NCBI RefSeq assembly: GCF_029906345.1
Contig: NZ_JARYGY010000003.1
Location: 434,001 to 498,000 of the forward strand
Source: Aquimarina mycalae
GTDB taxonomy: Bacteria; Bacteroidota; Bacteroidia; Flavobacteriales; Flavobacteriaceae
DNA: 64,000 nt
Reading direction: 5' to 3'
A model generated the notes under the pieces. It was not told where the DNA came from. It was given only the letters and a program-made list of their open reading frames with translations, and ran no database searches. How positions within the stretch are numbered: the first letter of the stretch is position 1; each line of letters starts with the position of its first letter. This document shows positions 36,124 through 62,975 of the stretch, one piece after another. The position numbers and the translations under genes are program-made.

Positions 36124-36163
36124 ATGTCCGTTTTTGGTAATCAAAGTCCGTTTTTGCAATTTT
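36124..36163 (+). repeat. Two 20-bp direct repeats, candidate regulator sites
   Basis: ATGTCCGTTTTTGG starts at 36124 and AAGTCCGTTTTTGC at 36144, exactly 20 bp apart, with conserved GTCC and TG at positions 3-6 and 12-13. The second ends 18 bp before a TAGATTTG -7 box. The same repeat occurs four times at 53572-53651. Confidence 0.75.
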
Positions 36164-36181: not shown

Positions 36182-36189
36182 TAGATTTG
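36182..36189 (+). promoter_or_regulatory. -7 box of the M66-like protease gene
   Basis: TAGATTTG matches TAnnTTTG. Transcription would start near 36196, leaving a leader of about 80 bases before the ATG at 36279. Confidence 0.6.
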
Positions 36190-36278: not shown

Positions 36279-37973
36279 ATGAAAAAAAACATTTTTATTC
36301 TATTATTATTTGCGTTCACATTGATTAATTGCAGTAATGATGAACAAATAGGATCCTCGGATTCATCCAATCCCACTAATTCAGCCGAAAGTATAGAGGT
36401 ATTTCTTGGACAGACTCATATCCTTCAACCCGAAGACCCTTTATTTGGTTTGGTGAGTGAAAGGGATGCTTTAATTAAAGTACAAGTAATATCAGAAAAT
36501 GGTGGTCAAGCGCCAATAGTAAATGCTATTTTATCATTAAACGGCACCACACAAACCTTACAATTAGAAGGTCCTTCAGAACTACCTACATCCTTTGAAA
36601 TAAACCCTGGTAAAGTACAACATACTTTTGACGATAGCTTTACTGCAACCATTACTAAAGATTGGATCAAACCAGGGCTTTCAATTCGAATAGAAGCTGG
36701 AGATGAAAATAAACAAATTGATAATTTAAAAATTGGAGCGCCAAACAAAATCATTATGACAATGTTTGATACGCACTTTTTTCAATATTCAGTTGGAGAT
36801 TATCCAACAGGTTGGAAAGAAGAACTAGAAGCCAAATGGCCATCTTCAGGAATTGAACTTATCAGAGTACCTAATGTTGTATTTTCTGAGTTAACAGTTC
36901 CACCCAGAGGAGGTAATATCATAGCTGCTCGAGTTTCTTCAAAAGAAGAATACAAAGATATTACAGGTTATAATTTTGATGGAGAACAAGCCACAGCCTC
37001 ACAATGGAACAGGGCTCTAAAAGAAGCAGCAGGAAAAAAAGGTAGATACTCTTTGTTTTACACTAACATTTATGGTGTTTTTTCTGGAGGACAAGCAGGC
37101 GGATTTGCTGGAGTAGGAAATGGCAAAAAAATAGGGTTACTACATCATGAACTTGGCCATGCTTTTTCATTACCACATTGGGGTAACAATAATGAATATC
37201 CTTATAAAGGAGACATGCACGGAATAGAGGCTCCAGACATTCATAATAAAACACATGCAGGTCCCACTTGGGCTTATGATCCAGTTAAGAAGTACCTTAT
37301 TCCACCAACTATACAGGAAAATACAATAGGATGGAAAGGCGAAGTCGGACAATACAAAATAGATCCAATGCAAGGTGGCGGAACAGGATCTCAAGAACAA
37401 CAATATCTACTAAATCATTTTTCTGATTACTCTGTAAACAAAATGAGAAATTATCTTCAAAATCATATTGTTATCTGGAACGAACAATCAGGAAACTACG
37501 CCAGTTGGGACTCTAATACTGGGGGTTATAACAATATTTTGGATAATAATGGAGTGAATTTTGCTAAAGAAAGAAATGTTGAAGTTCTAAGTGTTATGGC
37601 TGGTGTGAGCTCTTTAACTCCACAAGCTAATATTATATATCCACCAATTGGTCCATACCAGAGTGGTCTTATAGATCTTTTTAATCCTGAAATTGAAGAA
37701 GATAGATTAAAAGCGGATGAAATATATTGTCCAAATGGTGGTTGTGATGTAAGCCTAAGAATAGTCCAAGGTGGAATAACCAAATTGTATATGTTACCAT
37801 TAGAGATGGATACTTCTGTAGAACCGTCGAATGCAAGAAGCTACAAAACAAAAGCTCTTAACCTAAGAGCTAGTGAAGGTACTGTTACTAAAATAGAGTT
37901 ATTATCGACGCCTGATGTTGAAAAAAACGGCTTACCTGATAGTCCAATAGTACTATACACTTGGAACAACTAA
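36279..37973 (+). CDS. M66/StcE-like metalloprotease lipoprotein
   Basis: The start at 36279 gives MKKNIFILLLFAFTLINC, a lipoprotein signal. The frame is open from 36195, but that would start at the transcription start site. The 564-residue product has a beta-rich N-terminal part (LGQTHILQPEDPLFGLVSERDALIKV) like the domain that opens peptidase M66 proteins. Its zinc site is HHELGHAFSLPHWG (HExxH plus a third His) near residue 290. M66 enzymes such as StcE and TagA cut mucin-type glycoproteins. The family match is by pattern. Its upstream direct repeats tie it to the 53-59 kb locus. Confidence 0.72.
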   Translation: MKKNIFILLLFAFTLINCSNDEQIGSSDSSNPTNSAESIEVFLGQTHILQPEDPLFGLVSERDALIKVQVISENGGQAPIVNAILSLNGTTQTLQLEGPSELPTSFEINPGKVQHTFDDSFTATITKDWIKPGLSIRIEAGDENKQIDNLKIGAPNKIIMTMFDTHFFQYSVGDYPTGWKEELEAKWPSSGIELIRVPNVVFSELTVPPRGGNIIAARVSSKEEYKDITGYNFDGEQATASQWNRALKEAAGKKGRYSLFYTNIYGVFSGGQAGGFAGVGNGKKIGLLHHELGHAFSLPHWGNNNEYPYKGDMHGIEAPDIHNKTHAGPTWAYDPVKKYLIPPTIQENTIGWKGEVGQYKIDPMQGGGTGSQEQQYLLNHFSDYSVNKMRNYLQNHIVIWNEQSGNYASWDSNTGGYNNILDNNGVNFAKERNVEVLSVMAGVSSLTPQANIIYPPIGPYQSGLIDLFNPEIEEDRLKADEIYCPNGGCDVSLRIVQGGITKLYMLPLEMDTSVEPSNARSYKTKALNLRASEGTVTKIELLSTPDVEKNGLPDSPIVLYTWNN

Positions 37974-40149: not shown

Positions 40150-41817
40150 ATGAAAAAGACTATTATTTTATTGCTATTAAGCATCGTCATACAATTTAAG
40201 AGCACTGCTCAGACTGAAATTAATCATACCTACACTAAAACTGAAGGTCCAGACAAAAACCCTTTAAAAGGTTGGAATTCTGGATGGTGGGATAGTTATG
40301 ATATAGCATCTGTGGGTTTTCAATATTTAAAATGGAAAGATTTTGAGCCTACCAATGGAAATTTCAATTTTGATGCTGTAGAAGATGTTATAAATCGACC
40401 AGGATCAACTGGAAGACATGTTATCTTAAGACTATATGCAGACTGGTTTGGTGCAAATCAAACTTCTGATGCTGGACCTTCATGGCTTTACAATGATTTA
40501 GGAGTAGCCAGATTACAGTCTGGTGGTAAATATATTACCGATTATAATAATACAAATTATATAAGTCAAGCTATAGAAGCTATAGAAGCATTGGCTGATC
40601 GTTATAATGATGACCCTAGAATATATGCTATTCAATTAGGTGTGTTAGGATATTGGGGAGAGTGGCATACCTTTAGTTATGACGACCCTAATTTTGATAT
40701 TTCTGAGACTGCCAGAACACAGATAATTAGTGCCTATAAAAGTAATTTTTCTAACAAACAATTGATGGGTCGCTACCCATGGAGAGATCCTTTATCTTCT
40801 ACTGGCGGTATAGGTTTCCACAATGATTTTTTTGTTCCAAACAATGGACATAGTGATGAGTTTGATGATGCAATAGATCAAGGAAATAAATGGCGTCAAG
40901 GGCCTGTAGGAGGCGAAGTTCCTCCAATCGATAATAGTGAAGAATTTATGACTGCATTATATGAAACTCCTAAAGGAATGAGTATGATTGAGACAGGGCA
41001 TTATTCTACCATGAAAGTTGGTAGTGATGAGAGACCTTGTGCAAACAACTCAAATAGTCAAAGATGTCAGGGTTTTATGGCGATGCATCGTAAAATGGGA
41101 TATAACTTTCAAATCGAATCCGCTTTGTTTGCAGAACGTTTAGCAAATTCTGATAACCTATCTGTAACGATAACCATTTCTAATATTGGTGTAGCGCCTC
41201 TATACTATGATTGGGATGTTCAGTTTGCCTTAGTTGATCAAAATAACCTGCCAGTACAAGTGTTTGATAAAACATACGATTTGACAACTATAGTAGATAA
41301 TTCATCTAAAACGATCACGCTATCAAGTGCATTAAATGTATCTGTAGGTGATTATCGATTAGCAATACGGTTAATTCAACCAGATGCTGATACACCCAAA
41401 AATGCACCTTGGAAATTAGATGCTAGAAATACCTATATTCTTTTTTCTAATGAAATGACTGTCATTGACGGGCAGTGGAATGCCAATAATGCTTTAGTTG
41501 GTGGATGGTCTATTTTAGGAGATGTTACGGTTCAAGATGCTACCTTGGGAGTAACTACTTTTGATCCACTAGAAAACGCTATAAACATTTATCCTAATCC
41601 GTCTAATAAGCATTTAACTATACTGGATAAGAATAATATAGGATTAAATGAAGTACAATTTATTGATATGACAGGACGAATAATTCAAAAAACTTATATA
41701 GAGAGTTTAACTAATAATACAAAGACAATAGATATTTCGCATCTGTCGGCTGGTGTATATAATTTAATTCTTAATGCTGACGCTGGTAAAGTCCAAAAAC
41801 GATTTGTAAAACAGTAA
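40150..41817 (+). CDS. Secreted DUF4832-type protein with T9SS sorting domain
   Basis: The 555-residue protein has a signal peptide (LLLLSIVIQFKSTAQ). An N-terminal barrel-like region (NPLKGWNSGWWDSY, YLKWKDFEPTNGNFNFDAVE, IYAIQLGVLGYWGEWHTF) has the GH-like pattern seen in DUF4874/DUF4832 proteins. A beta domain (VTITISNIGVAPLYYDWDVQF) and the T9SS type A end (INIYPNPSNKHLTILD) follow. W-G-E-W-H in the barrel is a plausible catalytic segment, but activity is untested. It lies 57 bp after the previous T9SS gene and probably in the same operon. Confidence 0.82.
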   Translation: MKKTIILLLLSIVIQFKSTAQTEINHTYTKTEGPDKNPLKGWNSGWWDSYDIASVGFQYLKWKDFEPTNGNFNFDAVEDVINRPGSTGRHVILRLYADWFGANQTSDAGPSWLYNDLGVARLQSGGKYITDYNNTNYISQAIEAIEALADRYNDDPRIYAIQLGVLGYWGEWHTFSYDDPNFDISETARTQIISAYKSNFSNKQLMGRYPWRDPLSSTGGIGFHNDFFVPNNGHSDEFDDAIDQGNKWRQGPVGGEVPPIDNSEEFMTALYETPKGMSMIETGHYSTMKVGSDERPCANNSNSQRCQGFMAMHRKMGYNFQIESALFAERLANSDNLSVTITISNIGVAPLYYDWDVQFALVDQNNLPVQVFDKTYDLTTIVDNSSKTITLSSALNVSVGDYRLAIRLIQPDADTPKNAPWKLDARNTYILFSNEMTVIDGQWNANNALVGGWSILGDVTVQDATLGVTTFDPLENAINIYPNPSNKHLTILDKNNIGLNEVQFIDMTGRIIQKTYIESLTNNTKTIDISHLSAGVYNLILNADAGKVQKRFVKQ

Positions 41818-46658: not shown

Positions 46659-46833
46659 AACTTTAAACTTTTAAAAATTAATATTAACTTTTAAAGCTCT
46701 TTGGGTAAATTAGTACGCTACGAGAATGAAGAAAATTAAAATGGTGCATATGTAATTGTTCACCAAAAAGGTAATTATTTTTTTGGTGTGCATCCAACTT
46801 AACTAAAGCTTCAATTCGCGAAAGCATAGTCAA

Positions 46834-47005
46834 TTCAATAGTAGGCAGGTCTCCTGACTTGTAACATTTTTATCATCCTTCCCATCCAGTAACTAAGACA
46901 GTGGATATATATTGATAAAAACTATATGGTTACTTACAGTTGCGCGACAGTTCGTGATTCTCACACGATTCCCTATTAATTTACACTTAAGTAAAACCTA
47001 TATTG
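46834..47005 (-). ncRNA. Cobalamin (B12) riboswitch in the metE leader
   Basis: Read on the minus strand, the B12 box CAAGTCAGGAGACCTGCC (46861-46844) is preceded by AGGGAATCGTGTGAGAATCACG and AACTGTCGCGCAACTGTAA, the conserved J6/3 and P3-P5 segments. A GGTTTTAC near 47000-46992 begins the P1 strand. Order and spacing match class I cobalamin riboswitches. The metE ATG is about 180 bases downstream. A hairpin (CACCAAAAA / TTTTTGGTG, 46760-46790) lies between and may be part of the expression platform. The rest of 46659-47170 holds only promoters. Confidence 0.93.
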
Positions 47006-47170
47006 GTTGATCTAGAATTTTATGTAAAGAACTTTCTATACTATAAAAGTAACTTAAATAATGCTATGATCCTCCTAAAAAGACGCTAAAAGAATATTAT
47101 TAAACATTCATAATTTAAAACCAATCTTAACTTGATATTTAATAATTTTAGAATAGAAATATTTAAAATC

Positions 47171-47410
47171 ATGGAAAATAATATAAGAGGTGGCGATACT
47201 CCAATCCCTTGTCAATTAGAAGCAGATAAAAATTATGCTTGGTGTAGTTGTGGTCACAGTGTTGATCAACCATTCTGTAATGGCACTCATAAAAAAGAAG
47301 GAGGTACCAACCCTTTAATTTTTAGTGTAGAAGAAGCTAAAGAAGCCTATTTATGTACATGCAAACAAACCAGTAATCCTCCTTATTGCGATGGTTCACA
47401 TAAGAACTAA
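47171..47410 (+). CDS. Dual-CDGSH iron-sulfur protein
   Basis: The 79-residue protein carries two CDGSH-type 2Fe-2S sites: CSCGHSVDQPFCNGTH (about 23-38) and CTCKQTSNPPYCDGSH (about 62-77). Each has the C-x-C-x(n)-C-[DN]-G-[ST]-H ligand set of three Cys and one His. Such small two-site proteins are redox or iron-sulfur-transfer proteins. The ATG at 47171 is chosen because the upstream extension from TTG 47132 is low-complexity and unrelated to the family. It is monocistronic with its own terminator. Confidence 0.9.
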   Translation: MENNIRGGDTPIPCQLEADKNYAWCSCGHSVDQPFCNGTHKKEGGTNPLIFSVEEAKEAYLCTCKQTSNPPYCDGSHKN

Positions 47411-47413
47411 TTA

Positions 47414-47456
47414 AAAAACCCTATTCTATAATACAGAATAGGGCCTTATTTTTTTA
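47414..47456. terminator. Bidirectional intrinsic terminator
   Basis: AACCCTATTCT-ataatac-AGAATAGGGCCTTATTTTTTT lies between convergent genes. Confidence 0.85.
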
Positions 47457-47467
47457 TACGATTGTAG

Positions 47468-47881
47468 TTACGCTTCTTTATCAATCCAAGTAAACACAAT
47501 AGATGCTATCCTAGAAATAATAAACACAATGAACCCAAAAATTGGAGGAAGTGCTGAAACCTTTAACCCACCAGCAAATATAGTGGTAGAGATATTTCCT
47601 ATCGCCTCCAACTGATCAAACATTCCGACAATACCTATAAGTTGCCCTAGCATTCCCCAAACTAATGTTAACAAACCTATAGAATTTAGTAGTTTAATAT
47701 GTTTCTGTAGGTTATTATTGTTTTTTCTTATTGCTAACACACCTCTCACTATTAAAAAAAAGACGAGTAGTAACATGATTAAAATAGGAAACATAAAAAA
47801 CATTCCTCCTTCTTCTAATCTTTGAAAAAACTGAACAAACAGAAATGGGTTCTGTGCTTGCACTGTAGTTAGTGATATCAT
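47468..47881 (-). CDS. MotA/TolQ/ExbB-like small membrane protein
   Basis: The 137-residue protein has three transmembrane segments (about 27-46, 66-87 and 107-128). The region LLNSIGLLTLVWGMLGQLIGIVGMFDQLEAIGNIS resembles the G-x-x-G-T-V-x-G-M-x-x-x-F-x-x-x segment of ExbB/TolQ proton channels. It is shorter than ExbB (usually 220-250) and no ExbD partner is adjacent, so it may be a divergent channel or an orphan. Confidence 0.72.
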   Translation of the reverse strand: MISLTTVQAQNPFLFVQFFQRLEEGGMFFMFPILIMLLLVFFLIVRGVLAIRKNNNNLQKHIKLLNSIGLLTLVWGMLGQLIGIVGMFDQLEAIGNISTTIFAGGLKVSALPPIFGFIVFIISRIASIVFTWIDKEA

Positions 47882-48093
47882 AATTTATTTTTTGAATTAA
47901 ACATATTCAAAACTAGAATCTAAAGTTTTTGAAATATATTTTTTTCGTTCACTTACCAAATCCACATAGTTTTTAGCAGAATCAATACGATTTATAGAAA
48001 CACCTATCGAATCCTGCAATAAAGGAATCTAAAATGGTTATTCATCCAAAAATAAGGTATGGAAAATAAAAATTACTGATATTGTAGGCTAAT

Positions 48094-49170
48094 ATGGTTT
48101 CTAAAGACATTATTCTTAAAAAAGTTGCAACAATATTACTGCATACCATATTTTGGGTGATTGTGCTTTTCTCGTACACATATTTTTTCGGTTATAACAC
48201 AGAAGACATTAATTATGTTTTCTCTTTTTCTCTTTTTTTAATGCCTGTAACTATTGGCACTACCTATACAGTTACCGATATATTAATACCTAAATATCTA
48301 ATTAAAGAAAAATACTTTCATTGCATTCTGTATAGTGTTTATACAATGATTATCTCTGCTTTTTTTATTGTTATTTCCTTTTTTTACGGCTTGATATTCT
48401 TATCCTCACTTAAATATGAAGGAATGGCTCCGATGACCAGAAGTCCTTTTTTTCTATTTATTGCAGTGTACTTTGTAGTTTTTATTGCCAGTGCTTTAAG
48501 TTTAGCAAAACATAATTATCAGTCTACAACTGCCAATCAAGAACTGAAAAATAGAATTTTAGAAGCTCAATTGAAGCTAAAAGAACAAGAGTTGAATTAT
48601 CTAAAAATGCAAATTCACCCGCATTTCTTATTCAACACACTAAATACATTGTATGGTTTTGCATTAAAGAAATCTAATCATACACCAGAAATGATATTAA
48701 AATTATCCAATCTATTGGATTATCTACTATATCAATCAGATAAACCATTGGTTACTTTGAAGGAAGAAATAGATCACATTAAAGATTATGTAGCACTAGA
48801 ACAAATGCGTTTTAGTGATGTATTAGATATCTCTTTACAATTTGAAAATGTAAACGATACCATACAGGTAGCTCCGATGTTGTTAATCCCATTTGTAGAA
48901 AACAGTTTTAAGCATGGACAAATTGTAGATAAAAAGTTATCAATATATATGCGCCTAAAATGTGTGGATAATGAAATTCATTTTTCCATAACAAATTCTA
49001 TCTATCCATCCGACGAAAAGGATAATAAAGGAATCGGGTTAAGTAACATCAGAAAACGACTATCATTAGTCTATAAAGATAATCACGATCTTAACATATC
49101 GAAAGATCAGAACCTGTATACTGTAGAATTAATCTTAAAAAACCTAAAAACTCCTACTAATGAGTTCTAA
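48094..49170 (+). CDS. LytS/YpdA-type sensor histidine kinase
   Basis: The 358-residue protein has four hydrophobic segments (about 12-30, 38-60, 74-104 and 112-133). A coiled-coil linker (NQELKNRILEAQLKLKEQELN) leads to the His_kinase domain (QIHPHFLFNTLNTLYG, phosphorylated His near residue 174). The HATPase ends the chain, with LLIPFVENSFKHG (N box) and KGIGLSNIRKRL (G box). It pairs with the LytTR regulator, whose start overlaps its last 11 bases. The signal it senses is unknown. Confidence 0.93.
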   Translation: MVSKDIILKKVATILLHTIFWVIVLFSYTYFFGYNTEDINYVFSFSLFLMPVTIGTTYTVTDILIPKYLIKEKYFHCILYSVYTMIISAFFIVISFFYGLIFLSSLKYEGMAPMTRSPFFLFIAVYFVVFIASALSLAKHNYQSTTANQELKNRILEAQLKLKEQELNYLKMQIHPHFLFNTLNTLYGFALKKSNHTPEMILKLSNLLDYLLYQSDKPLVTLKEEIDHIKDYVALEQMRFSDVLDISLQFENVNDTIQVAPMLLIPFVENSFKHGQIVDKKLSIYMRLKCVDNEIHFSITNSIYPSDEKDNKGIGLSNIRKRLSLVYKDNHDLNISKDQNLYTVELILKNLKTPTNEF

Positions 49171-49870
49171 AATATCATGCATCATTGTAGACGATGAACC
49201 TACTGCAAGAGATATTATCGCTGATCATTTGACAAGAATTGATCGTATTGAAGTAGTTGCGATATGCAATAATGCATTAGAGGCATTTAATTGTATTAAT
49301 TCTCAAAAAGTAGATTTGATTTTTCTGGATATCAATATGCCTGAAATATCTGGGATTTCTTTTGCTAAATCCATTAACAAAGAGATCAAAATCATTTTCA
49401 CCACAGCATACAGAGAATATGCCATCGATGGGTTCGACTTACATGCGGTAGATTATTTACTAAAACCTATTTCTTTTGAAAGACTCCTTAATGCAGTCAA
49501 CAATTACTTCGAGATACATCATAAAGCTTCACCTATAAAAAATCAGGAAATAAAACCAAATGAATTTATTTTTGTTCGGTCTGAACGTAGAATGAAAAAA
49601 ATAGATTTTGCTGAAATTATCTATGTAGAAAGTTATAATGATTATCTCAAAATCCATTGTACTCAGGAAACCATTGTAACCAGAGAAACCATTAGTAATA
49701 TTGAGGCAAAACTACCAGTTCAACAATTTATGAGAACACACCGTTCCTTCATCATCTCCATACAAAAAATTGATTCTTTTTCTAATGAAGAATTAGTGTT
49801 AAACAACAAATCCATTCCCATCAGTAGAAATTATAAGAGTGAAGTACTAAATAGATTAGAAAATATCTAA
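49160..49870 (+). CDS. LytTR-family response regulator
   Basis: The 236-residue protein has a receiver domain (IIVDDEPTARDII; phospho-acceptor D57 in LIFLDINMPEISG; FTTAY and KPISFERL). A LytTR DNA-binding domain covers about 135-236 (FIFVRSERRMKKIDFAEIIYVESYNDYLKIHC, then MRTHRSFIISIQKID and IPISRNY). It forms an operon with the preceding kinase gene. Targets cannot be read from this window. The convergent hybrid regulator gene ends 12 bp away. Confidence 0.95.
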   Translation: MSSKISCIIVDDEPTARDIIADHLTRIDRIEVVAICNNALEAFNCINSQKVDLIFLDINMPEISGISFAKSINKEIKIIFTTAYREYAIDGFDLHAVDYLLKPISFERLLNAVNNYFEIHHKASPIKNQEIKPNEFIFVRSERRMKKIDFAEIIYVESYNDYLKIHCTQETIVTRETISNIEAKLPVQQFMRTHRSFIISIQKIDSFSNEELVLNNKSIPISRNYKSEVLNRLENI

Positions 49871-49882
49871 AGGATCATCTGC

Positions 49883-52800
49883 TTAAAAGTATGCACTTGG
49901 TTTCTTCCCGAACCTATCTTCATATAACTGAGAAAAGCGCCAGACATTACTCATACCAATCGTGTAAGCAACCGCTTTTACACTTCGATATGTTTTGAGT
50001 TCTAATAATTCTCTTCCTTTTTGTAATGCTACTTCCTGTTGGAATTTTTTCGGTGTTAATCCAGTTATTCTTTTGATTTTTCGTTGAAACTGTCGTTGAC
50101 TTAGAAAAAATTTATCAGCCAAAGTTGCAATATTAAATTCAGTATTCTCCAGTTCTCCTCCTATTATAATTTCTACCTCTTTTAGCCAATCAACATCTGT
50201 CTGCTTTATATCTTGTTCAAAACTTAGTTCTTCGGATACGATACTTCCAATTTGTAATTCTTTTATTTCTTCCTGTATTTCTTTTGCAACTATTTGGCGT
50301 ACTTTGTATCTCTGCAACAAATTATGAACACGTGCCATGAGCTCCTCTGGAGAAAAAGGTTTACTCAGATAATCATCAACACCAATGGTCAAAGCCTGTA
50401 GCCTATTATCCGAATTGTCCAATGCCGTAAGCATAACAACAGGAAGGTGTCTATAGGATTCATGATCTTTTAACTCTTGTAACAGCTCATATCCATCCAT
50501 CTCTGGCATCATTACATCAGAGATTACTAAATCAATCTTCTCCTTACCAAGAACGGATAAGGCCTGTTTACCGTTATTAGCAACAAAAGTATGGTATTTA
50601 TGATCCAACAATTGCTGAATAAATCGCTGCATATCTGGATGATCTTCTACAATTAATACAGTGTAAGGATGTGTATCTTTTGCTGTATCTTTTTCGATTA
50701 GTAACAGCTCACTTGCTTCTTCCTCTTCTTCATGGGAATCCCATCCAGATACAGAAGTATCTGGAGTTTCTATAGCTTTATATGCCAACGTTAGTAAAAA
50801 GGTGCTTCCTTCCCCTAATTTGCTTTTCACAGTGATCTCTCCGTTCATCAATTGCACTAATTCTTTAGCTAACGCTAATCCAATACCTGTACCTCCTTGT
50901 AAGCTATCATCGGATGTTTTGCTCTGAAAAAAACGATCAAAAATATAAGGGAGATCCTCTTCAGGAATTCCAGAACCTGTATCGATGACACTAAATTGTA
51001 ATTGATCTTCATCAATGACAGCAGAAAATGTCACCGATCCTCCTGAAGGCGTATGTTTAATTGCATTAGATAATAGGTTATTAATTACTTTTTCAAGGCT
51101 ATCTCTATCCAACAACACATAGGTATCTTCTGAGATATCTGAAGTCATTTTATAATGAATATCCAAATGCTGTGTTAACGAATCAAAATTACTTACGACA
51201 CGTCGTAAAAAAGGAATGATAGCAACTTCATCTTCATGTAATTCTAATTTATTGGACTCCAGTTTAGAGAGGTCCAGAATATCATTCACCAAACCTTTTA
51301 ATTGTTTCGCATTACGCTCCACCATTTTTAATTGTACTTTTTGGTTTATGCTCAAAGGATCCTTTTGACTAGAAAGCATATATTGAATGGGACTACTAAT
51401 CAACGTAAGTGGGGTACGTAATTCATGAGATACATTAGCATATAATCGCGATTTAGACTCATCCAGTTCTTCTAATGCTCTTTTTTGTCGGGCGATTTCT
51501 TCATTCTGAGAACGCAATAAAGAATTTGCTTTCTTTTTGTTCTTAAAGTTTCGGTATAAAGTAAACGCAATACCAATAAAGGCCAGAGAGATGATAATAG
51601 CAATATAGGTAATCCATCTATTTCGATCTAATTTTCGTTGCTGTATGGCCTCTTCCTGTTGTCTTTGGAAAGCTGCCTGCTGCTGTTGCTTATCAAAATT
51701 ATAGGACATCTCCTTTTGGACCAAAGCACGTGTATTGGATTCATTAAAAAGTGAATCTTTGGTTGATTGGTATAAATCCAATGCCTCAAAAGCTTTCTCA
51801 TATTGTCCACTTTCTTTATATATTGGATACAAGTATTTCGAAACAGAGTTTATTGTAGAAAAATCATTAGTAGTAATAACATCTTGCATTGTTTTTTCAA
51901 AAAATCTAAGAGCATGATCTTTTTTCCCTTTTAATAAATAGTTCTTCCCAAAAGCGATATTAAATTGCGATGTAAGTTCTTTATTACATTTCGATGCAAT
52001 AGGAATACCTTTATTTAAATTATACAAAGCAGAATCTGGTTGCCTTAACCCATGATATGCAAACCCTATTGCTAAATAACTATTAGCCATATTACAACTA
52101 TCTTTAAAAACCTTATACTGGTTTAAAGCCTGTACAGCATATTTTAAAGATTCATTATACTTACCAATTGTAGTAGTCATTTTACTTAAATTATTTTTTG
52201 CAAAAGCAATGGCTGAAGAATCCTTTGCCAAAATATAGCTATCCAAAGATTTTTGTAGGTATTTTATCGCTTTCTCATCTTGGTTTTGGTCTGAATAAAC
52301 GCTAGATATATTGCCATAATAAATACCTTTTCTATTATGATTTTTTAGTTTTTCAGCTCCTTTCAAAGCTTCAAAGTAATATTTAAGAGCAAGATCTATT
52401 TGGTTATACTTATCATACATAAACCCCAACGAATTATACAAAACGGAGGCTTTTTCTATATTTCCTTTTTCTTTATAGTAACTAGCACTCTTATTAAGAT
52501 AATAAACAGCCGAATCCTTTTGACCCATCTTCGAAAAGTAGTGTCCTAATAAATACATACTATGATTTATAAGGTCATCATCACCTATTTCTTTGCGTAA
52601 TTTTAAACTGGTTTGGTAGCTTTTTAATGATTGATCTTGTTGTCCATCCCTCAAATAAATAGTTGCTATATTATCTAATATACTAGCCAAATCTTTTTTA
52701 TTTCCCAATTGCTCAGATATATCAGCTGCATTTTCGCAATTAATAATAGCATCTTTATAGTTACCCTGACTTGCGAAAATGATCCCAAGATAATTATATG

Positions 52801-53452
52801 CGTTAACCATATTTGATAAGCTTCCTTTAAGCTTACTATCTTCTAAATCCTTTTTCGCATAATACACTGATTTATCATAGTCTTTTTTGATAAATGAAAT
52901 AGCACATAAGCTTGTATAAGGTGAATCTATAATTCTCTTGTTTTTTTCAGGTAGCTTATTATAAACAGTAAGGCTTTTATCAAAATATGTTTTTGCTTCT
53001 ATAATATTTTCTATCCTTTCATAACTTACTCCAATAAGATTAAACATTCTTGCTGTTAAAGTATGATAATCTTTTACTTCACTAATACTTAAAATTTCTT
53101 GGTATAAGATTATAGCCTTCTTTATATTTTCTTTTTTTTGATTATCTGAATCATTTTTCTCTAGCAGAATATCTCCTCGAAATGATTTTATAAACAATTC
53201 AGATTCTTCATCATTTACTTTTCTAGCCAACTTCATACCTTCATTGATATACTCGTCAACAAAATCATAATCATATTCTCCTTCTAAAAACTGATTAATT
53301 ATTTTTTTATATGCAAGTAGTTTCTTATCACTTGAAACGTCCGATTCAATCACAGAAGTCAAACTATCTATAACCTTCTCTTTTTGAGAAAAAATATGAT
53401 TACTACCTAGTAAGCAAAGAAAAAATATGATTAGAGGGAACTTTGTTTGCAT
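49883..53452 (-). CDS. TPR-sensor hybrid histidine kinase with receiver and AraC DNA-binding domains
   Basis: This 1189-residue one-protein two-component regulator has a signal peptide (LIIFFLCLLGSNHIFSQ). An array of TPR motifs (about 60-570; MVNAYNYLGIIFASQGNYKDAI is one) should lie in the periplasm, followed by a transmembrane helix (about 617-637). Then come HisKA (NVSHELRTPL, near 674), HATPase (N box DRDSLEKVINNLLSNAIKHT, GGTGIGLALAKELV), a receiver (VLIVEDHPDMQRFI; phospho-Asp in ISDVMMPEMDG, near 978) and an AraC HTH (about 1085-1189). Classic Bacteroidota HTCS use beta-propeller sensors; the TPR sensor is a variant. It is divergent from a secreted-protein operon with 20-bp repeats, likely its targets. 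Confidence 0.93.
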   Translation of the reverse strand: MQTKFPLIIFFLCLLGSNHIFSQKEKVIDSLTSVIESDVSSDKKLLAYKKIINQFLEGEYDYDFVDEYINEGMKLARKVNDEESELFIKSFRGDILLEKNDSDNQKKENIKKAIILYQEILSISEVKDYHTLTARMFNLIGVSYERIENIIEAKTYFDKSLTVYNKLPEKNKRIIDSPYTSLCAISFIKKDYDKSVYYAKKDLEDSKLKGSLSNMVNAYNYLGIIFASQGNYKDAIINCENAADISEQLGNKKDLASILDNIATIYLRDGQQDQSLKSYQTSLKLRKEIGDDDLINHSMYLLGHYFSKMGQKDSAVYYLNKSASYYKEKGNIEKASVLYNSLGFMYDKYNQIDLALKYYFEALKGAEKLKNHNRKGIYYGNISSVYSDQNQDEKAIKYLQKSLDSYILAKDSSAIAFAKNNLSKMTTTIGKYNESLKYAVQALNQYKVFKDSCNMANSYLAIGFAYHGLRQPDSALYNLNKGIPIASKCNKELTSQFNIAFGKNYLLKGKKDHALRFFEKTMQDVITTNDFSTINSVSKYLYPIYKESGQYEKAFEALDLYQSTKDSLFNESNTRALVQKEMSYNFDKQQQQAAFQRQQEEAIQQRKLDRNRWITYIAIIISLAFIGIAFTLYRNFKNKKKANSLLRSQNEEIARQKRALEELDESKSRLYANVSHELRTPLTLISSPIQYMLSSQKDPLSINQKVQLKMVERNAKQLKGLVNDILDLSKLESNKLELHEDEVAIIPFLRRVVSNFDSLTQHLDIHYKMTSDISEDTYVLLDRDSLEKVINNLLSNAIKHTPSGGSVTFSAVIDEDQLQFSVIDTGSGIPEEDLPYIFDRFFQSKTSDDSLQGGTGIGLALAKELVQLMNGEITVKSKLGEGSTFLLTLAYKAIETPDTSVSGWDSHEEEEEASELLLIEKDTAKDTHPYTVLIVEDHPDMQRFIQQLLDHKYHTFVANNGKQALSVLGKEKIDLVISDVMMPEMDGYELLQELKDHESYRHLPVVMLTALDNSDNRLQALTIGVDDYLSKPFSPEELMARVHNLLQRYKVRQIVAKEIQEEIKELQIGSIVSEELSFEQDIKQTDVDWLKEVEIIIGGELENTEFNIATLADKFFLSQRQFQRKIKRITGLTPKKFQQEVALQKGRELLELKTYRSVKAVAYTIGMSNVWRFSQLYEDRFGKKPSAYF

Positions 53453-53571
53453 AAATCAGTTGTTAAGAATACGTTAATTCTCTTAAATATATTAAATATT
53501 AATGACCAAAAGCCCTTCTCATAGAAAAAAGCGGGGAAACCTACCTTCTATCATCTTTATACATTACATGC

Positions 53572-53651
53572 ATGTCGCGTTTTGTCTATTCATGTCCAAT
53601 CTTGTATAGAAATGTCCATCTATGAACGGCGATGTCCATTTTTGGCTATTC
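53572..53651 (+). repeat. Four 20-bp direct repeats, candidate binding array of the hybrid AraC regulator
   Basis: ATGTC units start at 53572, 53592, 53612 and 53632, exactly 20 bp apart. All share T-G at positions 12-13. Positions 1-6 are ATGTCG, ATGTCC, ATGTCC and ATGTCC. The last unit, ATGTCCATTTTTGG, nearly matches the unit at 36124. The array ends 19 bp before a TATGTTTG -7 box, covering the region where an activator would contact RNA polymerase. Confidence 0.8.
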
Positions 53652-53670
53652 GCTAACTAACTGACATACT

Positions 53671-53678
53671 TATGTTTG
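53671..53678 (+). promoter_or_regulatory. -7 box of the secreted-protein operon
   Basis: TATGTTTG matches TAnnTTTG. Transcription would begin near 53685, about 37 bases before the first ORF at 53722. Confidence 0.6.
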
Positions 53679-53721
53679 CAATCATAAATCACAAGCTCTA
53701 TTTATAAACAATATAAAAACT

Positions 53722-53946
53722 ATGATTATGTCAATTACAACTATACATCTACGAATAAGTACATCTACTAAAGCTAAATATGAATTATTAGCTAAAGTTA
53801 ACCTTATGATAATACTACTATTAGGACTTATTATCTATAGGGTAAACGCATAAGGTGGTAGTAATTTAGAATCCACAAAACCAGATATCACTAATGCTGG
53901 TAAAATTAATCAACAGTCAAAAGGATTCAATTATTCATCATTATAG
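53722..53946 (+). pseudogene. Small exported protein interrupted by an in-frame stop
   Basis: ATG 53722 opens a 43-residue frame ending VNLMIILLLGLIIYRVNA then TAA (53851-53853). The same frame continues as GGSNLESTKPDITNAGKIN and on to a TAG at 53944-53946. With CAA in place of TAA it would read NAQGGS, a typical signal-peptide cleavage site, giving a 74-residue secreted protein. It lies right after the operon promoter and 44 bp before the next gene. Alternatively the 43-residue membrane peptide is real on its own. I recognise no family. Confidence 0.5.
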
Positions 53947-53990
53947 CCTTCAAAAGAAACAGAAAATTAAAAAAATAAAATCCATTTATT

Positions 53991-55583
53991 ATGAAAAATA
54001 TCCACAAACAAAACAGTAATAATGTATTATTTACAAAAACCTTTACTTTACTTACATTCTTATTAGTAGGTTTCAATATAGGTAACCTTAACGCTCAAAC
54101 ATGGACTGATAAATTAGGAAATGCCGAGAAATTTAAATTGGATGAACTGGTCATTAATACCGATTTTACCTCGAATGATAGAAGCGCACATCTTATCCTT
54201 AATGCTGGTAAAAAAAATCCATCTAGCGGATATAAAAAATATCATACGTGGCTTCTATCCAGTGATAAGGATAATGGGAATTTTTATATCTCTAATGCGA
54301 GCTACAACGACAGTAATACAATACCAAAATTTAATCACCTAGCAATTTTTGAAAGGGATGGAGATTTAGCAATCGATGGCCGTCTGAAATCCAAAAATTT
54401 GCAATTAGATTATGACATGAGATTAAATGGTAGTGAACATAAGGGAGTATTTCTTGGAGAAGGGATTGGTGATTACATTTTATATAGTTCCCCTTACAAA
54501 CGTTTTGTTTCATTAAATGCTGAACAAAGTATTTCCTTTGTCGTAGATAAGCCAAAAACCTTGGATGAGGTTGTAAATCCACAATTTGAAATTAGCGAAG
54601 GTTTGGCAGAAATGAAGGTTCCTTTAGAAATTGAGTCATCGGCAGCTATTGATTTAGATGTAAAAGGTGATATCAAAGCTACAAAAATACACTTAGAGGA
54701 ACTAAAATTAGGAAATACAACTTTTACCGAAAGTAATTTAACAGGAGGGGTTTCTCATTCAACGATAGATCCCAAGGAATATAAAGAATTCGAACGCCGC
54801 ACCAATATGGCACTTCTTGCACTAGGAGGAATATCTGCTGTTAATACAGCAGGAAATGTTTTAAATAGCTTGGCCATAGCAACTGGTGAAGCTTTTGATG
54901 CTGCTGAACTAGCTATTGATGCTATAGAAGGAGGAGCAGAAGTAAAAACTGATATAAAGGAAAAACTTGACAATCGTGCTACAAAGAAAAGATTACGAGC
55001 CCTTGAGAAAAATTTTAAAACAAAAACTGGCTTACGGGGTATATTGGGCAGAATAACAGGAAATAAGGAATGGATAAATTTTGAAATAAAAAACGATATT
55101 ACTTCACAGGAAGGTTCTATTAGTGCCAAAAAGGGAATTATTACAGGAAAGACTATAGTAGCTACAAACAATATTACTGCAAAAAAATTAGTAATTGATG
55201 ATAAGGGTTCGCAAGATGACGCTGCCGAAGTAGAGATAAAAGGGGATTTGGTTGCAAAACGTATCGCCTTAAGTAGTAATACTACAAATTTTAAGAAATG
55301 GGCAGATTATGTATTTGCTAATGACTATAGATTGCGCTCATTAACCGAGGTAGAGAGATATATCAAATCAAATAAGCATTTACCAGAGGTTCCTTCTGCA
55401 AAGGAAGTAGCAGAAAATGGATTTGATCTTTTTGATATGAATGCTACATTACTTAAAAAAGTAGAAGAACTTACTCTGTATACTATAGCACAAGAAAAAC
55501 AACTCAAAAGACAAACAAAACATATAAAAAGGCAAGAAGAGCGTTTGCAAAAGTTGGAAACACTTTTGCTAGAGGAAAAATAA
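53991..55583 (+). CDS. Secreted tail-fibre-like protein with C-terminal coiled coil
   Basis: The 530-residue protein has a signal peptide (FLLVGFNIGNLNAQ). A first beta-rich part (40-230) has phrases such as HLAIFERDGDLAIDGRLKSKNL, followed by an Ala-rich helical middle (ALLALGGISAVNTAGNVL). The tail (about 430-530: NFKKWADYVFANDYRLRSLTE, YIKSNKHLPEVPSAKEV, ATLLKKVEELTLYTIAQEKQ) matches a Bacteroidota end region found in tail-fibre-like and S74-related proteins, finishing in a coiled coil. It is probably a trimeric surface or secreted fibre. It is 25 bp from the next gene in the same operon. Confidence 0.72.
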   Translation: MKNIHKQNSNNVLFTKTFTLLTFLLVGFNIGNLNAQTWTDKLGNAEKFKLDELVINTDFTSNDRSAHLILNAGKKNPSSGYKKYHTWLLSSDKDNGNFYISNASYNDSNTIPKFNHLAIFERDGDLAIDGRLKSKNLQLDYDMRLNGSEHKGVFLGEGIGDYILYSSPYKRFVSLNAEQSISFVVDKPKTLDEVVNPQFEISEGLAEMKVPLEIESSAAIDLDVKGDIKATKIHLEELKLGNTTFTESNLTGGVSHSTIDPKEYKEFERRTNMALLALGGISAVNTAGNVLNSLAIATGEAFDAAELAIDAIEGGAEVKTDIKEKLDNRATKKRLRALEKNFKTKTGLRGILGRITGNKEWINFEIKNDITSQEGSISAKKGIITGKTIVATNNITAKKLVIDDKGSQDDAAEVEIKGDLVAKRIALSSNTTNFKKWADYVFANDYRLRSLTEVERYIKSNKHLPEVPSAKEVAENGFDLFDMNATLLKKVEELTLYTIAQEKQLKRQTKHIKRQEERLQKLETLLLEEK

Positions 55584-55608
55584 ATTAATTTTTAAAAGAT
55601 AAAAAGTA

Positions 55609-57717
55609 ATGAAAAAATTAATAAATAAATCCATTTTATTGTTAGTTGTATTGTTTTGTTGTAATCAACTTATACAAGCACAGGAACTTCTTAAGCCAAA
55701 CTATAAAGATGTTTCCCCTTTAAGAGCCCAACCTCCTTTAACAAGTAAATACAATATAAATAATTTAGACACTGCAAACCCTAATAATTATTTTGATTTT
55801 CTAGCCCATAATGATGTTTCGCAAAGATCTCGAGACCCAAAGGACAATTATATTCAGTATACCTATAATTCGCCTATAACTGTATCAAGAATTAAAATAG
55901 GTCTACCTAATCTTAAGTCCCCAGATTATGATCATCTAAGGATAAAAGAATTTAGGATACAAGGAAGTATTGATGGTAAAAATTGGAAAACATTACAACT
56001 TAAAAAAGGACAAAGTTATAATTTCGGTGGCTCAGGAAGATTAAATATTTTAACCTTAAATTTTGAAAATAGTTTAGCGTTTCCTGTTAAATTTCTTCGC
56101 TTCTATCTTGTTGATACGTATGCAAAAAAAGCTTTTCAGGATTGGGATGCAGGAACCAAAGTATTAATTGGTTACTTTCTGGTATATGGAAACAACATCC
56201 CTTTTGACGAAAACCTAAGGCTTAGTATTAACCAAATACCCGTAAGTAAAGGACATGCCACTCTGGTAGTAACAAAAGACATTGCAACTACACCACCTAA
56301 AATAATTTCTTCTGTATTAATAGATGCAGGATATGACAATACTGATGCTATAAAAATAATAAATGTAATTAATAAAGAAGCTAAAGGTCGATTAGATAGA
56401 GTGTATATTACGCATGTTGATCAAGATCACTGGGGTGGTTTACGAACATACGACCCCAAAGAAAAGGAGTTTAACGATAATAAATTAGGGATTTTAGCAT
56501 ATAGATGCGATGCTACATCACTTGGAAACCCCTATTCGATCTTTCAAAAGAATACAAACAAGTTATTAATTTTTTACAACGAAGAAGAAGAGAAATCTCC
56601 ACTTTTTCAAGGTAAATATGATAATTTTCCAATCGCTAAAATACAACTCAACCTAGCACAAAAACTCTGGAAATCCGACCAAAAACACTTAGTCCTTGGA
56701 AACTCACAAGATGGTAAACCGATCTTGTTAAAAACACTTGCGGTCAATCTTGAAATGAAAAGTAGTACTTCAAAAATAGAAACTAGCACTCTTGGTAGCG
56801 GGGCGAGTAAAAATGATCGTTCAGGAGTTATAATTATCACATGGGATCATTTTAGTTTTTTGATTCAGGGAGATTTACAAGGTGATCCCTTATCCAACAA
56901 TCGCAATAATCCAGCTTTACATAGTGAAGTTTCGCGTACTATAACAAGTTATACAAGTCGGAACAATTTTTATAATTATAGAGAACTTAGACTTCCCGAA
57001 GAATATGAATATAATAAAGAAAAAGATAATCCTGCAGCTAAGTCTCTTACTTTTGATCAAATAGAAGCTATAAACCCAGAATTAAATACAGGGTTTTTTA
57101 GAATCCCTCTCATTAATTTTAATTACTTGACTAAAGAACAAGAAGATAAGTTAAGAAAAAAAACACCTAATAAAGTCTTAAACATTCTAGATAGTGACTA
57201 TGTTATGAGTAATAAAGATTACATAGCTTCAGTTGATATATCAAGACATAAATTAGCAGAAGTAATTGAGACTCACAATGGAGATAGCGGTTATGGCCAT
57301 GCTTGTATTGCTTTAGCACCTCATCATGGTGGTAACACTGCTAATCTATGGTTTGATACAGGTATTGCCATCATTGGTACTAATAATCGGAACGAATATG
57401 GTCATCCTAGACCAGAAGCATTAAGAAGTCTTTATACAACTTCTGGAGTCCGAGATTATTATTTTACATATTTATTAAATAAGGGAGGACATAACAGATA
57501 CGATTTTGTTACCAATTATGCAACGAAATGGCCCAATTTGGCTAGATATGCACTGAAATATGAAACAGGTAAATCTAATGGAGATTATATAAAATTTGAA
57601 GTACAAACAGATCCTATAAACTCTGATTTTAAAGTTTATACTTCATCTTTTGAATATGTATCTAACGTTAATAGTAAAAAATTGAAAGAACTAGAAAGGT
57701 GCACAAGAGATCACTAA
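55609..57717 (+). CDS. Secreted metallo-beta-lactamase-fold protein with discoidin-like N-terminal domain
   Basis: The 702-residue protein has a signal peptide (LLLVVLFCCNQLIQAQ). A region like an F5/8 type C (discoidin) carbohydrate-binding module (about 55-190: ITVSRIKIGLPNLKS, IQGSIDGKNWKTLQL, AFPVKFLRFYLVD) precedes an MBL-fold domain of the ComEC type. That domain has YITHVDQDHWGG (about 266-277), the later FLIQGDLQGD and ALAPHHGGN (about 567-575). These motifs bind two metals, and relatives are nucleases or phosphodiesterases. The C-terminal 120 residues are unassigned. Secreted MBL domains joined to a binding module are unusual. The gene lies in the operon behind the 20-bp repeat array. 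Confidence 0.75.
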   Translation: MKKLINKSILLLVVLFCCNQLIQAQELLKPNYKDVSPLRAQPPLTSKYNINNLDTANPNNYFDFLAHNDVSQRSRDPKDNYIQYTYNSPITVSRIKIGLPNLKSPDYDHLRIKEFRIQGSIDGKNWKTLQLKKGQSYNFGGSGRLNILTLNFENSLAFPVKFLRFYLVDTYAKKAFQDWDAGTKVLIGYFLVYGNNIPFDENLRLSINQIPVSKGHATLVVTKDIATTPPKIISSVLIDAGYDNTDAIKIINVINKEAKGRLDRVYITHVDQDHWGGLRTYDPKEKEFNDNKLGILAYRCDATSLGNPYSIFQKNTNKLLIFYNEEEEKSPLFQGKYDNFPIAKIQLNLAQKLWKSDQKHLVLGNSQDGKPILLKTLAVNLEMKSSTSKIETSTLGSGASKNDRSGVIIITWDHFSFLIQGDLQGDPLSNNRNNPALHSEVSRTITSYTSRNNFYNYRELRLPEEYEYNKEKDNPAAKSLTFDQIEAINPELNTGFFRIPLINFNYLTKEQEDKLRKKTPNKVLNILDSDYVMSNKDYIASVDISRHKLAEVIETHNGDSGYGHACIALAPHHGGNTANLWFDTGIAIIGTNNRNEYGHPRPEALRSLYTTSGVRDYYFTYLLNKGGHNRYDFVTNYATKWPNLARYALKYETGKSNGDYIKFEVQTDPINSDFKVYTSSFEYVSNVNSKKLKELERCTRDH

Positions 57718-57959
57718 TAGTCATAAAACAAGAAAAAAATAGAGCTAAAACTTTAGAGAAATTCTTAGAATAAATCAATAAAAATAAATAGTCGCACAAT
57801 GAAGGTCTATTTAAACAGAGGTTACCAAAGAAACCTGGTTTAAAAAACAAACCTAATATACACGCAATGTATTATAGAGGTCATATATGATAACTTTTTT
57901 GAATGAACCTGATTGTAAGAAGATAAAACACTCTTTTAGAGTACAAAAAAATTAAGAAG

Positions 57960-59324
57960 ATGAAATATATAAATATACTTGATTATTGGATAGTCCTGGT
58001 TTTAGTAAGTTTATCTGCAAACACATGGTCACAACATGTAAAAAAACCTACACTAAAAATTGCTATCTATTACACAGCAAATTCAAAAAGTAGTTTTGAT
58101 AATTACATTGCTACTCAAGAAAAAAATGTAAAAAGTGTACTTGCAAATATAAATAAAGATATCATAACAAAATTTGATATCAAATTTATAGGAAAGACTC
58201 AACTTTCTTACATCGAACCTAAACATAGAAGTAATGATTATTCTAATAAGATCTTCGCTGATGGGTACAATCAAGTTTTAACCGAACTGGTATATCATCC
58301 AATATTCGATTACTATTATAAGAAAACAGCAAGTACATCTCACCCAGATTTCAAATTGGATAAAAATGAATTGGATTACAATTTTCTAAATTTAGATCCT
58401 ATGGTTCAAAGTGATATTAATATCATACTAGTAGATGATGTAGGGAGTTATGATATAACTCTAAGAACTAACGTCCTATATAATGATAAAAATCAACTTA
58501 TAAAAAGTAAGTTAGATAATCCATTATATGCGGTAATTAGCACCTATAGATTTAAAAATGACCCTCAAGCTTTGGCAATAGCTATTTATAGCATACTAGC
58601 TGACCCATCTGAAGCCGAAGCTACATCAGGGACTTTATTAACGGTTTGGCAAGAAAACGAATTTAGCCAAATAGGTGTTAACAATAAATTATCCCCCAAC
58701 AATGCTAAATTGTTTCAATGCAATGTTTCTGAAATGATATTAGAGTCAAAAGATGAAAAAACAATTAATAGCTCTATAAAAAATATCGAAACAAAAAGTA
58801 TTATAGATGCTGATGATAGGGTTTTGATGCTTCCTAAAAGTGGTACTGAATCAACTGTTTTATACCCTAAAAATGATAAAAATAGCTATATGGTATTTAC
58901 TACGGACCTATATAATGTGGCTTCGCCAAAAAGTTGTCCATATGTCGCAACAAAGGCACCCAACAATGCAGGTAAGTCTGCTGGAAATGAAAATTTCGGT
59001 GTTCATCAGGATGATGATCTTGATACAGATATAGAGATTACTAGTAATGAGGAAATAGAAACTCTTACAGAAACTCTTATAGTCTACCCTAACCCAACAA
59101 GTGGTGATGTTACTTTTGATGTAAACGTATCAAAATCTGGAGGATATAGGTTAGCATTATATAACGTCTATGGACAGCAAGCCATGATACTAATGGATGA
59201 AAACCTAACAAAAGGTGCACATCAGATTAGGGCGAATGTGGCTGGGTTAGTAACAGGAATATATATTTATCGATTAGAATCAGATACATCAGAACCAATA
59301 TCTGGAAGGATTATTGTAAAATAG
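57960..59324 (+). CDS. T9SS-secreted protein, possible inactive zincin
   Basis: The 454-residue protein has a signal peptide (LVSLSANTWSQ) and a type A T9SS sorting domain (LIVYPNPTSGDVTFDVNV to the end). Between lies a domain of about 330 residues starting KIAIYYTANSKSSFDNYIATQE. Its order of strands (INIILVDDV, YAVISTY, then ALAIAIYSILADPSEAEATSG) resembles reprolysin-type metalloproteases at the place where HExxHxxGxxH should be, but the histidines are absent. I treat it as an unrecognised domain, possibly a degenerate zincin. A 242-bp gap separates it from the previous gene, so operon membership is likely but not certain. Confidence 0.65.
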   Translation: MKYINILDYWIVLVLVSLSANTWSQHVKKPTLKIAIYYTANSKSSFDNYIATQEKNVKSVLANINKDIITKFDIKFIGKTQLSYIEPKHRSNDYSNKIFADGYNQVLTELVYHPIFDYYYKKTASTSHPDFKLDKNELDYNFLNLDPMVQSDINIILVDDVGSYDITLRTNVLYNDKNQLIKSKLDNPLYAVISTYRFKNDPQALAIAIYSILADPSEAEATSGTLLTVWQENEFSQIGVNNKLSPNNAKLFQCNVSEMILESKDEKTINSSIKNIETKSIIDADDRVLMLPKSGTESTVLYPKNDKNSYMVFTTDLYNVASPKSCPYVATKAPNNAGKSAGNENFGVHQDDDLDTDIEITSNEEIETLTETLIVYPNPTSGDVTFDVNVSKSGGYRLALYNVYGQQAMILMDENLTKGAHQIRANVAGLVTGIYIYRLESDTSEPISGRIIVK

Positions 59325-59353
59325 TAATTAGCCATAAACACAAATCCTGTATA

Positions 59354-59386
59354 AAACCCATCTGCTTTTTGTAGATGGGTTTTTAT
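59354..59386 (+). terminator. Intrinsic terminator of the secreted-protein operon
   Basis: AAACCCATCT-gctttttgt-AGATGGGTTTTT is a stem with a T-run. Confidence 0.88.
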
Positions 59387-59410
59387 GTATATTAAAAATC
59401 TTAGTTCAAT

Positions 59411-59482
59411 TAATCCTAAGCGTGTCAGTTTAAGTGAAGTTCTGACAAGGGTTTTATGTCGAAAACAACGGTTTAGGATTTA
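59411..59482. repeat. Folded intergenic element, possibly a degenerate REP-like repeat
   Basis: AATCCTAA (59413) and TTAGGATT (59472) can close a stem around an inner GTCAG/CTGAC pair (about 59424-59445), with GTGTCAGTTTAAGTGAAG at one arm. It resembles the start of the second element at 59584. Confidence 0.45.
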
Positions 59483-59583
59483 GAAACCTATTCATTGATC
59501 ATTGAACTTAGATTAAATAATGAAATTTGTAATTAATTCCAGTACTAAAAGAAACTACCTGAAAAGCTATAAAAACACTAAGA

Positions 59584-59653
59584 TGTCAGTTTGAGCTTGT
59601 TGAAGACATTTTAAAAATCAACAAGTTAAAACTTCGACAGGCTCAGTTTGACA
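59584..59653. repeat. REP-like inverted repeat
   Basis: TGTCAGTTTGAGCTTGTTGAAG (59584-59605) and CTTCGACAGGCTCAGTTTGACA (59632-59653) are inverted copies with 17 of 22 positions paired. Sequence words such as TTGAGCTTGTTGAAG and CTTCGACAGGCTCAG are typical of dispersed Bacteroidota repeats. The rest of 59387-59713 has no gene. Confidence 0.65.
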
Positions 59654-59713
59654 ATAATGCTTTACTTTTCGGTCAGATTCTTCAGTATATATGCTAAAAA
59701 TTTAATCCGAATC

Positions 59714-61120: not shown

Positions 61121-61189
61121 AAGAGATTATTATGTTGGCGTATTAAAATATAAACGTTTAAATAGTTCTTATTCTGAAAATAAGATAAA

Positions 61190-61197
61190 CAAATGTA
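61190..61197 (-). promoter_or_regulatory. Probable -7 box of lpdA
   Basis: CAAATGTA on the plus strand reads TACATTTG on the minus strand, a TAnnTTTG match 70 bp before the lpdA ATG. Confidence 0.5.
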
Positions 61198-62937: not shown

Positions 62938-62975
62938 ATGTTATAATAGTATCTAAATAATAAAAACAACAACTA

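Follow-up and report, generated by a model that had tools for sequence, protein, structure and literature searches.

What reads a run of four evenly spaced direct repeats placed between a hybrid regulator gene and genes for secreted proteins? The question arises at positions 53572-53678 of a 64,000-nucleotide stretch of Aquimarina mycalae (contig NZ_JARYGY010000003.1; the whole stretch is called the window), where the repeats, referred to as the win53 array, lie between a gene for a TPR-bearing hybrid two-component system (HTCS) protein and a divergent secreted-protein operon (Table 1). Judged from sequence, the array is very probably a four-site activator operator for this TPR-HTCS. The first-pass annotation had suggested a multimeric AraC-type activator, with the hybrid HTCS as the candidate, and the suggestion gains support from a related locus (L089), from arrays at 12 of the 15 genes of the regulator's clade and from the presence and absence of the pattern across genomes.

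The array, its promoter and its proposed regulator

Read directly, the units open with ATGTCGCGTTTTG at 53572, ATGTCCAATCTTG at 53592, ATGTCCATCTATG at 53612 and ATGTCCATTTTTG at 53632, which confirms the starts that had been given for these ATGTC-type units and puts their spacing at 20/20/20, that is, direct repeats about two helical turns apart, the arrangement that marks an HTCS operator. TG occupies positions 12-13 in all four units, and bases 53652-53670 separate unit 4 from the box TATGTTTG, in agreement with the 19 bp first reported. The Bacteroidota sigma-A promoter has a -7 consensus, TAnnTTTG, at -12 to -5 (PMC9723704), and its consensus also includes a TTTG element at -33 (PMC2483708). 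A promoter of this kind, recognized by its -7 element with or without the -33 TTTG, follows the array; the box is exact at win53, at a second array of the window (win36, starting at 36124) and at L089, and the 3' end of unit 4 overlaps the -33 position.

The regulator carries on one chain a sensor, HisKA, HATPase, a receiver (REC) and an AraC-type helix-turn-helix (HTH) domain: TPR (TPR_12), HisKA, HATPase_c, Response_reg and HTH_18/HTH_AraC all exceed Pfam cut-offs, a signal peptide and a transmembrane helix are recognizable by eye, the closest solved sequence is 12aw, a hybrid two-component protein, and the DNA-binding domain is predicted to adopt the AraC-family seven-helix fold with two HTHs. 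The classical HTCS sensor is usually a Reg_prop/Y_Y_Y propeller, with no strict requirement for one; the win53 HTCS has TPRs instead.

Conservation in a relative

Locus L089, in genome G486 (presumably of the genus Kordia), encodes a 1172-residue TPR-HTCS divergent from a three-gene run. The two HTCS proteins are 50 % identical over 1182 aligned positions and 67 % identical over the columns of a tree of 18 C-terminal parts, in which they are sisters with support of 100/99, the deeper order of the tree being uncertain because the outgroup branches are long. The operon products also have counterparts there, the last 112 residues of the first being 64 % identical to L089 gene 3374-6196, and the second and third being 28 % and 29 % identical to genes 1385-3355 and 38-1372, respectively. 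Between HTCS and operon lie four units, spaced 20/20/20, with TATGTTTG at offset 39 as in win53. Compared in register, positions 53572-53678 and L089 are identical at 73 of 107 bases, against a best 107-base match of 52 over 30 window-side shuffles. When the units are paired in all 24 orders, the colinear one scores highest, but at 56 against 54 of 80 the margin is too small to be strong evidence of unit-by-unit descent. The first-pass annotation had staked its proposal on conservation of the array in relatives that keep regulator and operon, and the proposal survives because L089 retains both of these, the four units and the 39-bp register.

Fifteen arrays in the Bacteroidota

Together with the two in the window, 13 arrays elsewhere in Bacteroidota make up the set analysed (win53, win36, L046, L048, L053, L053b, L054a, L054b, L071, L079, L089, L090, L091, L092 and L118); their limits were set by hand from consensus scans or pattern hits, with L053 and L054b traced in part directly in the sequence. 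Each unit is bipartite, approximately ATGTCC-N-TTTTTG, and an array holds two to four of them. Neighbouring units are spaced by 20 bp in 31 of 38 cases and by 30 bp in three. Same-strand pairs of matrix hits (at least 9 bits, the matrix being trained on the same arrays) at 18 loci form a helical ladder, with 28 pairs at 20 bp, five at 30, 11 at 40, six at 50 and four at 60, and 0-2 pairs at each other distance up to 65 bp. A possible extra unit about 29 bp upstream of L054b, noticed by eye, was left out of the counts.

The -7 box played no part in the scans. At 38 bp past the last unit start (offset 38), an array agrees with TAnnTTTG in 4.2 of the six letters when averaged over all 15. With the letters shuffled 5000 times, the highest mean at whichever offset was 3.27, and no shuffle equalled the observed value. 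At offset 38 or 39, ten arrays have at least five of the six letters and two more have four, giving 12 of 15 with at least four. TTTG stands at offset 15-18, which is 19 bp before offset 38, in six arrays (L046, L054a, L054b, L090, L091 and L118), five of which are related Kordia promoters. This register bears on the idea of a repressor or mixed operator, by which the HTCS, when no cue is present, would shut its own promoter or the operon. An array between two divergent genes would suit such a role, and Bacteroides BT2391 is said to repress its own locus (PMC11253607); however, the last unit as delimited lies upstream of the -7 box, keeps a constant distance of 38-39 bp to it in 12 of 15 arrays and has its end at -33, the place of a class II activator, and repression is decidedly improbable.

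Rarity of the pattern

Genome-wide counts rest on pattern searches, and those of the 5.19-Mb source genome gave mixed results. A two-unit pattern with up to three mismatches found nine matches against four for its reversed control, and with up to two mismatches six against none, whereas the looser ATGTCC-N5-TG-N7-ATGTCC, with up to two mismatches, found 14 against 12 and was not better overall. Seven of the nine two-unit matches fall in four arrays, win53, win36, L046 and L048, the last two adjoining two paralogues of the win53 HTCS; the looser pattern has four matches with at most one mismatch, all within win53 and win36, and one of its two-mismatch matches (L011) belongs to the L046 array. 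Single units are uninformative, the 20 found in the window with up to two mismatches being a mild excess over the 12.3 expected.

Scored with a weight matrix trained without win53 and L089, the best win53 pair reaches 23.4 bits. When the first 20 kb of the window were resampled 200 times under a first-order Markov model, the best pairs averaged 8.1 bits (standard deviation 3.0) and never attained this value. In 14 of 14 arrays, the best pair exceeded the best 20-bp pair in all 200 Markov resamples of its own locus, with matrices trained without the tested array (win53 and L089, and the four Kordia promoters of L054, L090 and L091, being dropped as groups) and with resampling of the window confined to its first 20 kb.

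Plasmid iterons are also direct repeats of about 20 bp, a likeness that counts for the repeats being non-regulatory, whether iteron-like, mobile or due to chance. Set against this are the box register in 12 of 15 arrays, as good in 0 of 5000 shuffles, the conservation at L089 and the rarity in the genome, which together leave a non-regulatory origin hardly credible.

The regulator clade and its distribution

The clade comprises 15 HTCS genes (win53, L046, L047, L048, L052, two in L053, L054, L055/L078, L071, L079, L089, L090, L091 and L092). Alignment of the HTH part replaced a whole-protein search that, at E<=1e-100 in 56 relatives and with no more than 12 candidates scored in each of the other genomes, had matched the source genome alone. 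An HTH-part profile run against GTDB contigs added four loci, in a Saprospiraceae metagenome-assembled genome (L052), Fulvivirga (L053) and Kordia (L054 and L055), and found a third clade copy in the Fulvivirga genome. Within the 66 genomes of the source genus, G063 is the sole one besides the source at E<=1e-40; ten match at E<=1e-20, of which the two below 1e-40 were taken as having the clade and the other eight (7e-21 to 9e-26) as lacking it. Among 11 Kordia genomes, four have the clade at E<=1e-32. At that threshold, samples of the family (397 genomes) and class (395) contained it only in the source genome and, for the family, G266, in searches that may miss members because 11 candidates were scored per genome. 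By these searches, the clade looks rare. Since L052, L071 and L079 have Reg_prop and Y_Y_Y sensors and win53 has TPRs, the sensor differs within it.

Of the 15 clade genes, 12 have an array in the stretch examined around them, either in the divergent intergenic region itself or at distances of up to some 6 kb, the two HTCS genes of L053 being counted with two arrays, and the genes after the arrays mostly have secreted- or lipoprotein-like N-termini. At the non-clade HTCS loci L020 and L021 of the source genome, no pair exceeds 16 of 24 letters, and at L072 none reaches 18.

At the thresholds given, the two genera provide 77 genomes, six with the clade and 71 without. The pair pattern, allowing two mismatches, has matches in all six of the former by hand count (seven, with no control match, in the source genome G000 and G063; 11, with one control match, in the four Kordia genomes) and in 12 of the latter (13 and 1 matches; controls 16 and 3), a difference with a Fisher P of 8e-5 when kinship is ignored. 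Fifteen of the 18 clade-genome matches belong to ten of the 15 arrays, and array-like pairs rise above background only in genomes with the HTCS clade. Of the rows assigned to background, 17 in all, 14 lie across open frames longer than 100 codons, and not one shows five or more box letters at 38-39. One match, L119 in G486 (one mismatch), was counted as such but judged to be background; it spans a 139-codon open frame and has no box.

LytTR operators consist of paired direct repeats separated by about two turns, and a LytTR response regulator (49160-49870) adjoins the HTCS gene, with response-regulator-like genes seen by eye at several clade loci. These facts count for a different regulator at the array, either this LytTR protein or another of the AraC or LytTR type, with the HTCS a mere neighbour. 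Such a reader seems unlikely: no LytTR-type gene was seen by eye among open reading frames (ORFs) of at least 130 residues at the array-bearing loci L089 (19.5 kb), L091 and L092, array-like pairs follow the HTCS clade in two genera (a distribution compared for the HTCS alone), and the bipartite unit would suit a double-HTH AraC domain.

Contrary observations and a proposed mechanism

Several observations weigh against the arrays being activator operators of the clade HTCS. The matches L119, L122 and L126, out of 18 found in clade genomes, resemble background. No array was seen within the 16.3 kb examined at L052; L055/L078 has none nearby, the array L118 being some 56 kb off on that contig; the only pair at L047, counted by eye, is reverse-oriented and 30 bp apart; and the L046 array faces, by eye, a histidine-kinase-like gene, not one for a secreted protein. 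Four spacings are off the period (18 bp in L079, 19 in L048 and L071, 21 in L046), and the box is poor in L048 (2/6), L054a (3/6) and L118 (3/6). The claim that the array abuts the -33 region holds by position, through the end of unit 4, and fails by sequence; the -33 contact at win53 is positional, because TTTG is missing there. The win53 array is also 120 bp from the HTCS start, so the HTCS may regulate its own gene. Finally, the base counts from the first 14 arrays, with 49 units (C5 in 49, G13 in 45, T12 and T2 in 42 each), are partly circular, because the selection consensus came from the window; this circularity weighs less on the box register and on the presence/absence test.

In the mechanism favoured here, an extracellular cue would act on the TPR sensor, the kinase would phosphorylate its own receiver domain, and release of the AraC-type domain would follow. 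One AraC domain would occupy each 20-bp unit, with one HTH on ATGTCC and the other on TTTTTG, the two sites being less than one helical turn apart from centre to centre. Because the unit period equals two helical turns, four AraC domains would line up head to tail on the same DNA face; the last, on a unit that begins 38-39 bp upstream of the -7 box, would end over -33 and recruit sigma-A RNA polymerase, leading to transcription of the secreted-protein operon. A more speculative extension, tentative and on the doubtful side, starts from an HTCS that is membrane-anchored and, by analogy with other histidine kinases, dimeric, so that one receptor could not fill four units. A four-unit operator would then need at least two receptor dimers side by side, the promoter would be drawn to the inner membrane and would respond cooperatively to receptor clustering, the threshold might be set by the number of units, from two to four, and by the 20/30-bp steps, and one code might serve TPR and propeller sensors.

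Relation to known operators

Escherichia coli AraC at araI1-I2 and XylS at Pm use direct-repeat half-sites about two turns apart, the proximal one overlapping -35, in class II activation; these are soluble regulators with two half-sites and sigma-70 -35/-10 promoters, whereas the promoter elements here are -33/-7. MtlR of Pseudomonas fluorescens, an AraC/XylS activator with several direct repeats upstream of -35 at PmtlE, differs in its binding site, which contains two 15-bp blocks and spans 37 bp or more, and in having no 20-bp four-unit array (PMC4514859).

HTCS proteins are a major regulator class for Bacteroides polysaccharide genes (PMC11253607). In Bacteroides thetaiotaomicron, Ravcheev et al. 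(2013; PMC3878776) predicted two-site HTCS motifs with a mean distance of 21 bp, in an analysis restricted to HTCS genes that co-localize with susC/susD-like or similar genes. Those operators are alike in serving AraC-type HTCS proteins, in having direct repeats on one helix face about two turns apart, and in a motif similarity that tracks the phylogeny of the DNA-binding domain (PMC3878776). The present system differs in its two to four sites, mostly 20 bp apart with some 30-bp steps, its 38-39 bp register to the -7 box and its TPR sensor; moreover, no TonB-receptor-, susC- or susD-like ORF was noticed by eye in the ORF list for 46000-64000, for which a profile search was not made. A 2024 study reports that HTCS response-regulator parts shift promoter DNA and describes an inhibitory contact of the receiver with the DNA-binding domain (PMC11253607). 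The HTCS operator models found are two-site predictions and electrophoretic mobility shift assays on promoters with predicted sites (PMC3878776, PMC11253607). Within the accessible portions of the openly licensed literature searched, there was no work on flavobacterial HTCS operators, and neither an HTCS operator with four sites nor the operator of a TPR-HTCS was described; the string NPHFNP had no literature match. On sequence grounds, the up-to-four-site array with a fixed promoter register is a variant on the predicted two-site HTCS operators. With operator, step size and promoter distance all readable, targets away from the regulator gene can be predicted (36124 in the window; L118 in Kordia), and a precise question is opened, namely, the number of membrane receptors that would have to gather on one promoter.

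Neighbouring genes and further features

Table 1. Coordinates of the operator units, promoter elements and genes in the window
Feature	Position	Strand	Remarks
win36 unit 1	36124..36143	+	ATGTCCGTTTTTGGTAATCA
win36 unit 2	36144..36163	+	AAGTCCGTTTTTGCAATTTT
win36 -7 box	36182..36189	+	TAGATTTG; 38 bp past last unit start
First gene after win36, M66-peptidase-like	36279..37973	+	lipoprotein-like start (by eye)
DUF4832 / type IX secretion system (T9SS) protein	40150..41817	+	same gene run as M66-like gene after win36
HTCS, 1189 aa, proposed array binder	49883..53452	-	TPR sensor, HisKA, HATPase_c, REC, AraC-type double HTH
Operator unit 1	53572..53591	+	ATGTCGCGTTTTGTCTATTC; 16/20 identity with L089 unit 1
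Operator unit 2	53592..53611	+	ATGTCCAATCTTGTATAGAA; 14/20 identity with L089 unit 2
Operator unit 3	53612..53631	+	ATGTCCATCTATGAACGGCG; 12/20 identity with L089 unit 3
Operator unit 4 (promoter-proximal)	53632..53651	+	ATGTCCATTTTTGGCTATTC; 14/20 identity with L089 unit 4
win53 -7 box	53671..53678	+	TATGTTTG; matches Bacteroidota sigma-A TAnnTTTG; 39 bp past unit 4 start
Inferred transcription start	53683	+	assumes -7 box = -12 to -5 (PMC9723704)
43-codon ORF	53722..53853	+	ATG at +90 from unit 4 start; between promoter and 530-aa gene
Operon gene 1, 530 aa	53991..55583	+	signal-peptide-like start (by eye)
Operon gene 2, 702 aa	55609..57717	+	F5/8 type C and metallo-beta-lactamase-fold matches weak, below Pfam cut-offs
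Operon gene 3, 454 aa	57960..59324	+	type IX secretion sorting domain

The 530-residue product of the first operon gene has no Pfam or NCBIfam match at the cut-offs applied. The win36 array is probably read by the win53 HTCS or by one of its three paralogues. The M66-like protein that follows it has relatives (62-63 % identity) in the vicinity of the clade HTCS of both L047 and L071, and the DUF4832 protein shares 55 % identity with the product encoded divergently from the L048 clade HTCS. The reverse pair of L047 (GACAAAAACGGACAT) precedes an M66-like gene and lies between the two genes with ends at 9382 and 9551, and the L046 HTCS paralogue and array (L046 89-7068) adjoin, by eye, a conjugative-transfer-like cluster.

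On the other side of the win53 HTCS gene lies a LytS/LytTR-type histidine kinase and response regulator pair at 48094-49870. Response-regulator-like genes were also seen by eye near L046, L047, L054, L055/L078, L071, L079 and L090.

Downstream of the promoters, an early ATG lies at +72 to +93 from the last unit start in ten arrays besides win53 (by eye), and the 43-codon ORF of win53 is possibly a small first gene or a leader. A 13-codon ORF, none of which was seen after L091 or the window arrays, follows four Kordia arrays, at L054 (two places), L090 and L118 (MKKLTKRNPHFNP, MKNLLKGNPHFSP, MKNLKKRNPHFNP and MKNQTKRNPHFNP); it lies 83-91 bp past the last unit start, before the next gene, and may be a conserved leader or peptide.
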